Assembly: GCF_000764665.1 (NCBI RefSeq)
Contig: NZ_JRGM01000130.1
Span: 1-64,000, forward strand
DNA from: Aeromonas lacus
Lineage (GTDB): Bacteria; Pseudomonadota; Gammaproteobacteria; Enterobacterales; Aeromonadaceae
Reading direction: 5' to 3'
Length of the DNA: 64,000 bases
In this document: piece by piece, positions 29,584 to 34,124 of the stretch
How the letters are laid out: each line of letters begins with the position of its first letter
How positions within the stretch are numbered: the first letter of the stretch is position 1
Position numbers and translations under genes: made by a program
The notes under the pieces: model-generated
The model's input: only the letters and a program-made list of their open reading frames with translations
Databases searched by the model: none
Told to the model about the DNA's origin: nothing

Positions 29584-30561
29584 TCACCCGCCCGATACGG
29601 GCAGAACCAGATTGGCGGGTCTGCCTTCGGCAAAGGCCAGCACATTCTCGAAAGCCACGCGAAAGTAGAGTTCGTAGCTGTTTTGCTCGACATAGCCGAG
29701 ATGAGGCGTCGCCAGTACATTTGGCAGGCGCAGCAGGGGTTCGTTTTCCTGTGTGGCCGGTTCGGTGTCAAATACATCGAGTGCAGCCCGCTTCTCCGGA
29801 TGGCTACTGAGCTCGGCATAGAGCGCGCCCGGCTCGATAAGCTCGGCCCGGCTGGTATTGACCAGCAGAGAGTCTCCCTTCATGCGGGTAAGGTCTGCGC
29901 GGGTCACACAGCTGCGGGTTGCCTCGCTCAGGCGCAGATGCAGCGTGAGGATATCGGCCTCACTAAAGAACGCCTCCTTGCTGGAGGCGCTGACATAACC
30001 ATCCAGTTCGGCCTGCTTGCGCGACGTTTCACTGCCCCATATCAACACCGACATGCCAAATGCCTTGCCGTAACGGGCGAGCCGCTGGCCTATCTTGCCA
30101 TAGCCCCAAATACCCAACGTTAACCCTTGCAGGGTACGGCCCAAGCCGAGTGGGCCGGACTGTTGCCACTGGCCTTGGTTCAGAGTGTGACTGTAAGCGG
30201 GAACATGGCGCGAGGCCGCCATGATGAGCGCCCAGCAGAGCTCGGCCGGCGCTACCGGGCTGCCGATGCCTTCGGCAATCGCCACTCCATAGCGTTGGCA
30301 TAAAGCGGGATCGATATGCTGGCTGACTTTGCCGGTCTGGCTGATGAGTTTAAGGGAGGGGAGCAGCATCAACAGTTGTTCGTCGATGCGGGTGCGCTCG
30401 CGGATCAGCACCAGTACTTCCACATCTGCCAGCTTGGCGGCAAGTCGCGCCGGATCCGGTTCGCTCTGGTTGAGAATGATAACGTCATGAGCTGTCAGCA
30501 GCGCAAAGCAGGGGAGATGGCGCACCTGATCCTGATAGTCATCCAGAATAGCAATCCGCAT
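29584..30561 (-). CDS. D-isomer-specific 2-hydroxyacid dehydrogenase family protein
   Basis: This 325-residue NAD(P)-dependent oxidoreductase has the Rossmann motif LGIWGYGKIGQRLARYGKAFG. The catalytic triad positions are Arg in LVNTSRAELI, Glu in DVFDTEPATQE and His in ATPHLGYVEQ; all three are intact. The N-terminal substrate-binding part contains LISQTGKVSQHID. Family members include D-3-phosphoglycerate, D-lactate and hydroxypyruvate reductases. The substrate here is not evident. It is the sole gene of its unit. Confidence 0.9.
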   Translation of the reverse strand: MRIAILDDYQDQVRHLPCFALLTAHDVIILNQSEPDPARLAAKLADVEVLVLIRERTRIDEQLLMLLPSLKLISQTGKVSQHIDPALCQRYGVAIAEGIGSPVAPAELCWALIMAASRHVPAYSHTLNQGQWQQSGPLGLGRTLQGLTLGIWGYGKIGQRLARYGKAFGMSVLIWGSETSRKQAELDGYVSASSKEAFFSEADILTLHLRLSEATRSCVTRADLTRMKGDSLLVNTSRAELIEPGALYAELSSHPEKRAALDVFDTEPATQENEPLLRLPNVLATPHLGYVEQNSYELYFRVAFENVLAFAEGRPANLVLPVSGG

Positions 30562-30717
30562 AAGAAATCCCTCTCGATAGCGTTTAGTTGGGCATCTATC
30601 TTACCGGAAACAGTGTGAGTAGTGCCTTCGAATGGGGGCGTTTGAGAAGTGCCATATCGCCTTCAAGCCTCTTCGTATCAACAGTGAGCCTCAACGGGGG
30701 TGGGTTCGGCAGGCCAA

Positions 30718-30753
30718 AACAATCAGGGCCCCCATATGGGAGCCCTGATTGTT
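30718..30753 (-). terminator. Terminator of prmA
   Basis: A 12-base stem AACAATCAGGGC/GCCCTGATTGTT with an internal CCC/GGG extension gives TGTTTTGG on the minus strand, 15 bases after the prmA stop codon. Confidence 0.85.
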
Positions 30754-30767
30754 AAATCGGGTGCTGG

Positions 30768-31646
30768 TTAGGCGTGCTTTCGGCCGGAGAGGCGGCACCA
30801 CTCCTCCTTGACGGCGGTCGGGTCCATCTCGAACCACTGGCCGTAGATGGTTTCCAGCTCTGGCGCCTGGCTCTCCAGCACACCGGATAGGGCCATCAGG
30901 CTGCCCGCTTTGCCGTGGCCGGCGATAAGCGGTGCCAGTTCGCGCAGCGGGCCGGCGAGGATGTTGGCGACCACCACGTCCGCTTCGACGTCTTGCGGCT
31001 GGTCGGCCGGCAGATAGAGCTCAATCTGGTCGGCGACGCCGTTGCGCGCGGCGTTTTCGCGGCTGGCCTGAATCGCCTGCGGGTCGATGTCGATGCCGAT
31101 GACGCGGGCGGCACCCAGTTTCAGGGCGGCGATGCCGAGAATGCCGGAGCCGCAACCAAAGTCGACCACGGTTTTACCGGCCAGATCCAGCCCGTCCAGC
31201 CACTGCAGGCAGAGCGCAGTGGTGGGGTGGGTACCGGTACCGAAGGCCAGACCCGGATCCAGCATCACGTTGACCGCATCGGGGTTCGGTACATCGCGCC
31301 AGCTCGGGCAGATCCAGAGGCGCTCGCCAAACTGCATGGGGTGGAAGTGATCCATCCATTCGCGCACCCAGTCCTTGTCTTCCAGCTGCTCGACCTTGTA
31401 GCCGACGTTTTCGCCGAAGATCTGCTGGAAGAAGGCGATGGTGGGGGCCGGATCGGTTTCGGCATCGAACAGACCCATTACTTCGGTCTCGCCCCAGAGC
31501 GGGGTTTCACCGGGCATGGGTTCATAGACGGGCACATCCTTGGCATCCATAAAGGTCACCGCCTGGGCACCACGCCCCAGCAGCATGTTGCTCACCTTGT
31601 CTGCGGTCTTGGCAGTGGCGTTGATTCGAATTTGTATCCAGGGCAT
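30768..31646 (-). CDS. prmA: Ribosomal protein L11 methyltransferase
   Basis: This 292-residue SAM-dependent methyltransferase trimethylates amino groups of ribosomal protein L11. An N-terminal substrate-recognition domain (1-60) precedes a class I methyltransferase fold with the SAM motif [20 protein letters not shown], the acidic motif [10 protein letters not shown], and [10 protein letters not shown], equivalent to the NPPY-type loop. Length fits the family. In E. coli prmA follows panF directly; here 4 kb of other genes lies between them. The upstream plus-strand region holds two candidate small-RNA genes. Confidence 0.96.
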
Positions 31647-31753
31647 GGCGTCGACTCTTCATAAATGTGAAACCGCGCGATTCTATCATCATGGGCGTGT
31701 GCTGTCGTGGTTTGCCCGTACGGAGCGGGCGATGGTGGTGTCATGAGGAGGCT

Positions 31754-31782
31754 TTGTCGAATTGGCACGGTTTCTGTATTGC
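31754..31782 (+). promoter_or_regulatory. Candidate dual promoter of small RNA 1
   Basis: A sigma-54-like element TGGCAC (31763-31768) has GG and GT ten bases apart, so the -12 position is GT instead of GC. It is overlapped by a sigma-70-like pair, TTGTCG and TATTGC with 17 bases between. Both predict a start near 31788. Overlapping sigma-54 and sigma-70 promoters with one start site are known for the enterobacterial small RNA GlmY. Confidence 0.4.
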
Positions 31783-31787
31783 TCTGT

Positions 31788-31870
31788 AGCGGCGAAGATG
31801 ACCGGTTTTCGCCGAACGCTTTGCTCAAGTTCCGTCATTTTTCACTGCCACCGTCAGGTGGCATTTTTTT
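31788..31870 (+). ncRNA. Candidate small RNA 1
   Basis: About 83 bases run from a predicted promoter to a strong terminator, TGCCACC/GGTGGCA with loop GTCA and seven T (31846-31870). Near its 5' end a hairpin CGGCGAA/TTCGCCG is seen, followed by a loose segment and the terminator, a common small-RNA layout. No plus-strand protein gene precedes the terminator. Short open frames in the area lack ribosome-binding sites. Function unknown. Confidence 0.5.
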
Positions 31871-31908
31871 GGCTCAAAGATGGGAAGTTGCAGGGCAACC
31901 GGCACAGT

Positions 31909-31924
31909 TGGCACGCCAGCTGCA
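31909..31924 (+). promoter_or_regulatory. Sigma-54 promoter of small RNA 2
   Basis: TGGCACGCCAGCTGCA fits the sigma-54 consensus TGGCACG-N4-TTGCA, with GG and GC exactly ten bases apart. An inverted repeat GTTGC-AGG-GCAAC lies just upstream (31887-31899). The start would be near 31934. Confidence 0.65.
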
Positions 31925-31933
31925 AAAGCCTGA

Positions 31934-32016
31934 TGTCCTGCTGAAGGATATGTGTGTGATTGTTACCCCAATGTTCAGGTATTTAGGGCCATCCCGGCGG
32001 GATGGCCCTCTTTTAT
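31934..32016 (+). ncRNA. Candidate small RNA 2
   Basis: About 83 bases run from the sigma-54 element to a strong terminator, an 11-base perfect stem AGGGCCATCCC/GGGATGGCCCT with a three-base loop and TTTTAT tail (31985-32014). The 5' part holds a short TCCT/AGGA hairpin and an unpaired-looking middle. There is no plus-strand protein gene. It follows candidate small RNA 1 by about 60 bases and looks like its tandem companion in layout, although the two sequences are not obviously similar apart from the promoter. Confidence 0.5.
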
Positions 32017-32134
32017 GGGTTTTTTATGGTGGTTCTGCGTGGTGACTGTCTGGCTCTCTGGTTGTTGCGTCCCCTGTTGGGGCGTGGCACTGGTGAGTTC
32101 ACACCATGATGGTGCAGCAATTACCCACAAGGGA

Positions 32135-33151
32135 TTAGCGGGAGAAGCCGCTCATGTCGATCACCAGCTTGCCCACCATGCGGCCCGCCTCTACCTCGGC
32201 ATGGGCCTCTGCCAGTGAGGTCGGGGTCAAGGCCGGCAGGGTTTTGGTCAGAGTGCTCTTGAGTTCGCCCTGATCAACCAGAGTGGCAACCTGTGTCAGC
32301 AGCTTGTGCTGCTCGATCATGTCCGGGGTCTGGAACAGGGAGCGGGTAAACATGAACTCCTGGCTGAAGGTCACGCTCTTGCTCTTGAGCAGGGAGAGAT
32401 CCCAGGGCTCTTTGGACTCGGCGATGGTGCAGATATGGCCGAACGGGCGGATCAGCCCAGCCATGGTAGCCCAGTGCTCTGCGGTGGCATTGGTGCAGAA
32501 GATGGCATCGACTTGAGTAATGCCAAGGGCGGTCAACTCCTCCTGCAGCTTGTGATGGTTCACGACCTGATGGGCGCCCATCTCGAGGCACCACTCACGG
32601 GTTTCGGGGCGAGAAGCGGTAGCAATCACCTCCATGCCGGTGAGCTGGCGGGCGAGCTGGATGGCGATGGAGCCAACTCCGCCAGCTCCGCCGATGATCA
32701 GCAGTTTGCCACGGCTCTCGCGGGTGAGGCCAAAGCGGTCGAACAGGGTCTCCCAGGCGGTGATGGCGGTCAGCGGCAGGGCGGCTGCCTCCACGTCGCT
32801 CAGACTGATGGGGGCGATGGCGGCGATGCGCTCATCCACCAGTTGCAGGGCGCTGTTGCTGCCGGGGCGGCTGATGTCGCCGGCATACCAGACCCGGTCG
32901 CCCGCCTTGAACAGGGTGACTTCGCTGCCGGTGGCGATCACTTCACCGACCGCATCCCAACCCAGCACGCGCGGGCTACTTTCGACCTTGGCCTTGGGGG
33001 CGCGCACCTTGATGTCGACCGGATTGATGGAGGTGGCGTTGACCCGCACCAGCAGATCGCGCGGGCCCGGCGTGGGGTCGGGCAGCTCGGCGGCGATAAA
33101 GCAGTGGGGATGGTCGCTCGGCAGATAGTGAGTCAGGGCAATGGCTTTCAT
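32135..33151 (-). CDS. Zinc-type alcohol dehydrogenase-like protein (quinone-oxidoreductase superfamily)
   Basis: This 338-residue medium-chain reductase/dehydrogenase has the NADPH-binding motif LLIIGGAGGVGSIAIQLARQL and substrate-side landmarks NATSINPVDIKVRAP and VLGWDAVGEVIATGSEV. It lacks the structural-zinc cysteine cluster, which places it with the zinc-independent quinone reductase/YogA-like branch. The start is the ATG of MKAIALTHY; the 47-codon upstream extension is not credible. It is divergent from a LysR-type regulator, which likely controls it. The cellular substrate is unknown; aldehyde, enone or quinone detoxification is inference. Confidence 0.9.
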   Translation of the reverse strand: MKAIALTHYLPSDHPHCFIAAELPDPTPGPRDLLVRVNATSINPVDIKVRAPKAKVESSPRVLGWDAVGEVIATGSEVTLFKAGDRVWYAGDISRPGSNSALQLVDERIAAIAPISLSDVEAAALPLTAITAWETLFDRFGLTRESRGKLLIIGGAGGVGSIAIQLARQLTGMEVIATASRPETREWCLEMGAHQVVNHHKLQEELTALGITQVDAIFCTNATAEHWATMAGLIRPFGHICTIAESKEPWDLSLLKSKSVTFSQEFMFTRSLFQTPDMIEQHKLLTQVATLVDQGELKSTLTKTLPALTPTSLAEAHAEVEAGRMVGKLVIDMSGFSR

Positions 33152-33203
33152 GGTTATTCCTTTCAAATCGGTGTGTTCGGGATTGCCACTCACTCTAGTC
33201 TGG

Positions 33204-33220
33204 TTAATTATCCTGATTAA
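33204..33220. promoter_or_regulatory. LysR-type operator between lysR-like and oxidoreductase genes
   Basis: TTAAT-N7-ATTAA is an interrupted dyad containing a T-N11-A LysR box. It sits in the 100-base divergent promoter region. Confidence 0.5.
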
Positions 33221-33251
33221 GATGGGTAATTGGTAAAGACTGTTTGAATAT

Positions 33252-34124
33252 ATGAACAATGTCGATCTGGAGTTGATGGGACTGTTTGCCACCGTGGTGG
33301 AGCAGGGGAGCTTTACCCGGGCGGCCGAGCTGATGGGGATGCCGAAATCGTCGGTGAGCCAGAAGATCTCGCGGCTCGAAGCTCAGCTCGGCGTGCGGTT
33401 GCTGCAGCGCACCACCCGCAGGTTGAGCCTGACCCCGCAGGGGGAGGTCTATGTGGAGCATTGTCAGGGGCTGCTGACGCTGGCTCGCAGCGCCAATCTG
33501 GCGATGGCAAGGTTGCGCTCGGCCCCGGCAGGTCGGGTTCGGATCACCGCCCCCGAGGCGACCGGTACCCTGCTGCTTGGCAGGATCCTCGCCGAGTTTC
33601 GTGCGCTTTACCCCGAGGTGGTGCTGGAGCTGACCCTGAGTGATGAACAGCTCGATCTGGTGGGCGAGGGTTACGATCTGGCGCTGCGGGCAGCGCCGCT
33701 GAAAGATTCCAGCCTGATCTGCCGGCGTATCGGTCAGGTGCCGCGCCATCTGGTGGCGGCACCCGCTTATCTGGCGGCCCACGGCATGCCGCAGCAATTG
33801 AGCGATCTGGGCCGTTATGCCTGTCTAGTGCACTCGGCGCTGCCGCTCTGGCCGCTGCAGGAGGGAGGCTGGCGGCCGCAGGGTGCCTGCATCAGCAACA
33901 GCCTGCTGGCGCTGCGGGAGTTGGCGATCAACGAAGGGGGGATTGCCTTGCTGCCTCACCATGTCTGCGAGGGGGATCTGGCGAGTGGCCGATTGCAGAA
34001 GGTGCTGCCGGAGCTCGCCGTGCCGCCCAACCCCTTCTATCTCATCTATCCGAGCCGGGAGCATCTCGCTCCCGCCTTGCGAACCCTGATGGACTTTGTG
34101 GCCGAGCGGCTGCCGTTTGCCTGA
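33252..34124 (+). CDS. LysR-family transcriptional regulator
   Basis: This 290-residue regulator has an N-terminal winged helix-turn-helix (SFTRAAELMGMPKSSVSQKISRLEAQLGVRLLQRTTR, about 21-57) and a C-terminal type-2 periplasmic-binding-like effector domain (about 92-285). The best resemblance is to the subfamily that regulates divergently placed oxidoreductases. It faces the alcohol-dehydrogenase-like gene across 100 bases. Its stop codon lies four bases from the end of the convergent PTS gene. Confidence 0.93.
   Translation: MNNVDLELMGLFATVVEQGSFTRAAELMGMPKSSVSQKISRLEAQLGVRLLQRTTRRLSLTPQGEVYVEHCQGLLTLARSANLAMARLRSAPAGRVRITAPEATGTLLLGRILAEFRALYPEVVLELTLSDEQLDLVGEGYDLALRAAPLKDSSLICRRIGQVPRHLVAAPAYLAAHGMPQQLSDLGRYACLVHSALPLWPLQEGGWRPQGACISNSLLALRELAINEGGIALLPHHVCEGDLASGRLQKVLPELAVPPNPFYLIYPSREHLAPALRTLMDFVAERLPFA

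Follow-up and report, generated by a model that had tools for sequence, protein, structure and literature searches.

In Aeromonas lacus, the DNA that separates prmA from a gene for a zinc-type oxidoreductase holds two plus-strand units in tandem, each made up of a promoter, a short RNA and a terminator, and both are almost certainly real small RNA genes. Our main reading, to which we give a probability of roughly 0.6 from sequence comparison, is that they are two unrelated Hfq-type small RNA genes that would be activated together by phosphorylated NtrC (NtrC-P) through a shared downstream enhancer in nitrogen shortage. The units lie near the middle of the window, that is, the whole stretch of 64,000 nucleotides that was analysed. 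The divergent neighbour on the minus strand is prmA (50S ribosomal protein L11 methyltransferase; 30768-31646; NCBIfam TIGR00406, 334 bits, cut-off 183), and the convergent neighbour, also on the minus strand, is the zinc-binding alcohol dehydrogenase-family oxidoreductase (32135-33292; NCBIfam TIGR02817, 403 bits, cut-off 284). The TIGR02817 match begins at residue 49 and the stop of the gene is at 32135, while its true start is probably near 33151. The first-pass annotation, made from the sequence alone, had described here two tandem small RNAs dependent on sigma-54, each about 83 nt long; its coordinates for both units proved correct when the stems, T-runs and sigma-54-like boxes were located again, and the comparative data argue for the pair as such.

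RNA1 is a predicted transcript of about 82 nt (31789-31870, plus strand), and an alignment of 16 sequences together with the folds gave it a 5' hairpin, a single-stranded core, a U-rich stretch and a terminator. Its start at 31789 was set from the position of the promoter. The core, GCTTTGCTC..AAGTTCCGTCAT (31818-31838, plus strand), is formed by invariant columns of the 16-sequence alignment and is the presumed seed; the motif [T/C]TCCGTCAT within it was present in 35/35 loci. The rho-independent terminator occupies 31846-31870 on the plus strand, with the stem at 31846-31863 and a T-run to 31870. RNA1 folded better than its shuffles (z -3.25), and none of 200 shuffles equalled it. The 5' hairpin (31789-31813) was found in two unrelated sequence forms, which occur in different clades, and it was missing at three loci (L032, L033 and L035). 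This variation of the 5' end may represent module exchange in a small RNA. Given that the hairpin differs between clades and that three loci lack it, the working part of RNA1 is likely the core rather than the hairpin.

RNA2 is predicted to be about 80 nt long (31935-32014, plus strand; start at 31935 likewise set from the promoter position), and two alignments with pair counts indicated a small 5' hairpin, a GU-rich core and a terminator. The conserved core ATATGTGTGTGATTGTTACCCCAATGTTCAGGTATTT (31948-31984, plus strand) consists of mostly invariant columns in a 17-sequence alignment. Its GU-rich part can be written as ATRTGTGTGTG..TTCAGGTAT, and the elements AGGA..TGTGTGT and TTCAGGT were kept even in the deepest species. 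The rho-independent terminator extends over 31985-32014 on the plus strand, with the stem at 31985-32009 and a tail to 32014. RNA2 also folded better than shuffles (z -2.92; 0/200 shuffles equal), and the pairing of its terminator survived base changes, with a covariation score of 0.145 versus 0.115 in shuffles and 0/500 shuffles as high. Terminator and hairpin pairs altered on both sides numbered 2, which 30/500 shuffles equalled, and the count of further pair types in RNA2 was equalled by 274/500. The hallmarks of an Hfq-type small RNA, a U-run terminator and an exposed conserved seed, were found in the two RNAs, the core being mostly unpaired in RNA1 by partition function and only partly unpaired in the prediction for RNA2. 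The two RNAs were also compared with each other. As sequence siblings they had to be rejected, with a local score of 14.0 against a shuffled mean of 14.1, and so had mutual pairing, since a fraction of 0.43 of the shuffles paired equally well.

The first-pass annotation had staked its reading in part on conservation of promoters and terminators in related strains, and this conservation, the decisive test of the pair, was clear: both units, with their -24 boxes and terminators, recurred in 35 of the 37 Aeromonas genomes (own genome included; terminators of the three deepest loci judged by eye). BLASTN of the region gave a match in 34 of these 37 genomes, one of which (G021) covers the prmA side alone, and a covariance model of RNA2 matched 35, adding G009 and G029 to the BLASTN set. 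Unit 1 precedes RNA2 in all 35 loci. The two genomes that lack RNA2 are G006, in which prmA is preceded by other genes, and G021, which has a deletion. The deletion in G021 (L079, C101) is about 2.2 kb long and runs from window-equivalent 31718 to ~33930; it takes out both RNA units along with some of the LysR gene and leaves a short oxidoreductase fragment. Mean pairwise identity was calculated from the 32 loci that share the A-B arrangement of half-sites past unit 2 (see below). It was 0.82 for RNA1 and 0.89 for RNA2, 0.83 for promoter 1 and 0.73 for promoter 2, 0.80 for the 52-bp block A-B, 0.73 for the 61 bases that precede unit 1, 0.56 for the sequence following unit 2 and 0.47 for the spacer between the units. 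Conservation thus ends at the promoters and terminators, and with the spacer at 0.47 this means that each unit is kept as a whole and the intervening DNA drifts. No relatives outside the genus were found in a family-wide search with the RNA2 model (35/75 genomes matched, all Aeromonas), and an order-wide search with a second model gave none either (21/394 genomes, all Aeromonas); for sets above 40 genomes the filters were stricter, so that weak matches are lost. Scanning named genomes by pattern returned 27 records, every one of them Aeromonas.

Sigma-54 requires an enhancer-binding protein, and the consensus used to scan for its promoters was YTGGCACGNNNNTTGCW. With up to 3 mismatches, this consensus matched 91 places in the window versus 71 expected from shuffles. 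The box of unit 2, TTGGCACGCCAGCTGCA (31908-31924, plus strand), was the sole 1-mismatch match in the window, and that of unit 1, TTGGCACGGTTTCTGTA (31762-31778, plus strand), was one among eight 2-mismatch matches. In each unit the -24 element was TGGCAC in 32 and TGGCAT in 3 of the 35 loci. At -12, unit 2 had GC in 35/35 loci, which gives the GG-N10-GC form throughout, while unit 1, with a GG-N10-GT box in the window, had GT in 33 loci, GA in 2 and GC in none, deepest species included. Unit 1 therefore fails the strict sigma-54 consensus, having no GC at -12, though its -24 box is kept in 35/35. This box had been called imperfect in the first-pass annotation, and it does deviate from the consensus, but the deviation is not decay, because a non-GC -12 is conserved genus-wide and is thus a stable property. 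The unit 1 promoter might still function as a sigma-54 promoter despite it; the non-GC -12 may reflect tuning of the promoter, and poor use of sigma-54 by unit 1 is the alternative. In our judgement, dependence of both units on sigma-54 is very probable. The conserved (G/A)TCCTG of RNA2 begins 12 nt past the unit 2 GC in 33 loci and 11 nt past it in 2, and the two promoters are 135 to 215 bp apart across loci.

By eye, no conserved enhancer was seen before the promoters apart from one block, which falls on the predicted promoter of the divergent prmA. Past unit 2, 32 of the 35 loci have a 52-bp block with two TGG(G/T)GC half-sites at a spacing of exactly 32 bp, the elements being ..TTGGGGC (or TTGGTGC, ATGGGGC) followed by CACCCCATGATGGTGC or its variants. 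In the window they form the two parts of the proposed downstream NtrC enhancer, both listed without strand: site A at 32068-32084, with the half-site TTGGGGC, and site B at 32100-32116, CACACCATGATGGTGCA, which has one mismatch to GCACCANNNTGGTGC. The two upstream NtrC sites of E. coli glnA (281 and 313) are also 32 bp apart, and the two NtrC-like sites of glnA in our own genome are 34 bp apart, not 32. A matrix of 17 positions was built from the E. coli and Aeromonas glnA/glnL sites. Site B scored 17.1 bits with it in the window, and 0/100 shuffles of the region were as high; in 27/35 loci the best downstream site was reached by at most 4/100 shuffles. Site A was weak by this matrix, with 1.0 bit in the window and negative scores in many loci, and in eight A. 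veronii-like loci site B had only 7.7-8.3 bits. A better-scoring NtrC match was located upstream of or inside the units in 5/35 loci, with one tie. Across our own genome the NtrC consensus with at most one mismatch was found in 66 places versus 4 for the backward pattern. The three deepest loci are without the 32-bp half-site arrangement. In A. simiae (G027), where the pair sits between gluQ and a PTS-type gene and tblastn over 10.5 kb detected neither the oxidoreductase nor LysR nor prmA, the stretch past unit 2 has three TGGTGC half-sites versus 0.2 expected from shuffles, and the best full NtrC site there is weak (5.8 bits; 12/100 shuffles as high). Past unit 2 of Aeromonas sp. RU39B (G029) there are sites of 16.5 and 13.9 bits, and past that of A. 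diversa (G009) a site of 11.3 bits. Since A. simiae keeps its half-sites without the oxidoreductase, and RU39B and A. diversa have sites at this place, the NtrC-like sites seem to be linked to the RNA pair rather than to the oxidoreductase.

NtrC is encoded in our own genome (NF008176, 828 bits, cut-off 620) beside glnA, which carries a sigma-54-like promoter together with its two NtrC-like sites. To the first-pass annotation we add a probable activator, NtrC, which would act from downstream; NtrC as the main activator of the pair is a likely choice in our estimate, and the downstream enhancer is somewhat likely to be the acting site. Enhancers downstream of a promoter are unusual. According to PMC9731577, NtrB of enterics phosphorylates NtrC when nitrogen is low, and the mapping of E. 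coli sigma-54 is treated in PMC4591121. In the proposed mechanism, NtrB of Aeromonas would likewise phosphorylate NtrC at low nitrogen, and NtrC-P would bind 32068-32116, which is 3' of unit 2. Measured from the predicted starts in the direction of transcription, this enhancer would lie about 135-180 bp past start 2 and 280-325 bp past start 1, from where NtrC-P would loop back and contact both RpoN-polymerase complexes. RNA1 and RNA2 would then accumulate together, each from its own sigma-54 promoter and probably with Hfq, and would pair with target mRNAs via their conserved cores. Here we infer transcription, starts, NtrC binding, Hfq use and targets from sequence. As a tentative and rather doubtful extension, a single downstream NtrC enhancer, two unrelated RNAs and differently tuned promoters might turn one nitrogen signal into two outputs with different thresholds, and we know of no described small-RNA pair with such an architecture of one enhancer and two thresholds.

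Other explanations of the locus were weighed against this reading. Terminator-like matches in 30500-33500 numbered 4 (both unit terminators and two overlapping them) versus 2.3 in shuffles, which is no clear excess and makes the terminators by themselves weak proof, and an open frame starts in the RNA2 of the window at an ATG preceded by AAGGA. Both observations would suit units that are not small RNA genes but chance terminators with promoter-like words, or remnants of a small coding gene. The conservation is genus-wide and confined to the units, and the peptide candidate in RNA2 was rejected because its frame is broken in relatives by changes in the C-run length and by TGA or GTG variants; in its main form this explanation is refuted, and we regard it as extremely improbable. 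The block A-B itself could be the 3' end of the oxidoreductase gene, with a role in processing or termination that has nothing to do with the RNAs, the activator sites lying elsewhere. It is indeed close to the oxidoreductase stop codon in the loci inspected, but the retention of TGGTGC repeats in A. simiae, with no oxidoreductase in 10.5 kb, and by eye the lack of the loop or T-run that a terminator needs in the A-B palindrome make this a decidedly unlikely explanation.

The remaining explanations concern the activator. Fifteen PF00158 matches were found in our own genome, the last two of them weak. Leaving out NtrC and LuxO, 11 strong and 2 weak ones remain, and the pair could be sigma-54-dependent under another activator or several, with A-B as the site of another regulator. 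The fairly conserved 61 bases before unit 1 and the poor fit of site A to the NtrC matrix are in line with this, but the conserved sequence ahead of unit 1 lies where the divergent prmA promoter is predicted, and the TGGTGC half-sites and 32-bp spacing point to NtrC rather than to other activators. The GlrR-like response regulator, a candidate of the GlmY type (L091, C42:149848-150294), has an AAA+ domain without the GAFTGA loop and probably cannot activate sigma-54. Overall we consider control by such other activators unlikely. The pair could also be a counterpart of Qrr, in which case LuxO-P would switch on both promoters when cell density is low, with the RNAs controlling a quorum-sensing regulator. 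A full-length LuxO-like activator with a GSFTGA loop is encoded (665 bits to NF041946; Vibrio cut-off 800), and it would have no known target, since the Qrr covariance model (RF00378) matched 0/37 genus genomes at E 0.001, but this was a search in which no positive control gave a match. Around the pair there was no perfect LuxO box, which we take to be TTGCANNNTGCAA, and with up to 2 mismatches it was found in 17/35 loci without a shared position, some of the matches falling within RNA1 or the promoter of unit 2. No luxU-like ORF directly after luxO was seen by eye in our own genome (L087, C41:45449-45946), and the conserved palindromes fit NtrC rather than LuxO. Control by LuxO thus appears very unlikely to us.

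In the window no Rfam family was found at gathering score. At E up to 10 there were 4 matches, of which isrD was the top one; it reached 20.8 bits with a cut-off of 37, lay mainly on the terminator, and was rejected. GlmY/GlmZ were absent from the Rfam matches in the window both at gathering score and at E up to 10, and 0/37 genus genomes reached the cut-off of RsmY (RF00195). With no Rfam match in the window and two dissimilar RNAs, the pair is not a sibling pair of the Qrr, GlmYZ or CrcYZ type, which bears out the earlier remark that neither RNA could be recognised as one of these. NrsZ of Pseudomonas aeruginosa is a free-standing small RNA under sigma-54 and NtrC control with nitrogen limitation as the signal. 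To judge by this description, the predicted Aeromonas system resembles NrsZ in being free-standing, in its sigma-54/NtrC control and in its nitrogen-limitation signal, but it has two unrelated RNAs of about 80 nt and an enhancer that is apparently downstream. Qrr RNAs of Vibrio are several sigma-54-dependent Hfq-type siblings with a 5' hairpin and a terminator; the Aeromonas RNAs share the sigma-54-type promoters, the 5' hairpin and the terminator, but are not siblings and have no Rfam match. GlmY and GlmZ of enterics are longer siblings at separate loci, with sigma-54 promoters under GlrR. The Aeromonas pair likewise consists of two small RNAs with sigma-54-type promoters, but the RNAs are shorter and not siblings, and the GlrR-like protein is, as said, without GAFTGA. 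GlnZ of the Enterobacteriaceae is, according to PMC9731577, an Hfq-dependent small RNA of the glnA 3'UTR that links carbon and nitrogen metabolism, is cut from the glnA mRNA and has the seed 5'-UUGCCGUGGAAA. Unlike GlnZ, the Aeromonas RNAs have their own predicted promoters, and the GlnZ seed was seen in neither RNA by eye; the pair would be an independent counterpart to GlnZ.

In our own genome, the complement of the RNA1 seed had 8 non-self places with 1 mismatch versus 15 for the backward control, none of which was a clear start-codon site except perhaps one at a CBS-domain gene (named by eye). For the RNA2 core complement, allowing up to 2 mismatches gave 5 non-self places, against 1 for the control. 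The best of the five was in the leader of a GntP-type permease (named by eye), with DNA matches in 22/37 genomes; this complement was kept in 5/16 aligned long sequences, one of the five with a change. These complement scans gave no conserved target for RNA1 or RNA2. The titles and abstract openings of the open-licence papers listed on the topic contain no description of the pair, which probably represents a so far undescribed, RNA-based arm of the response to nitrogen starvation. The genus Aeromonas comprises pathogens of fish and opportunistic pathogens of humans. If activation by NtrC from the downstream block is true, nitrogen control in the genus would have a genus-wide non-coding arm, NtrC would have a natural case of action downstream of its promoters, and the conserved non-GC -12 box of unit 1 would have a purpose that is directly testable.

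CrcZ and CrcY of Pseudomonas are sigma-54 small RNA siblings with CA-rich Hfq-sponge repeats. Unlike them, the Aeromonas RNAs are far shorter, and CA-rich Hfq-binding repeats were not found in the aligned sequences by eye. The likeness consists in the predicted sigma-54 control and, in three deep-branching Aeromonas species, in the neighbourhood. In these species (L075, L076 and L077) the pair adjoins gluQ-pcnB-folK-panB-panC and not prmA, which means that the locus was rearranged within the genus, and this group of genes is what we take to be the crcZ neighbourhood in Pseudomonas.
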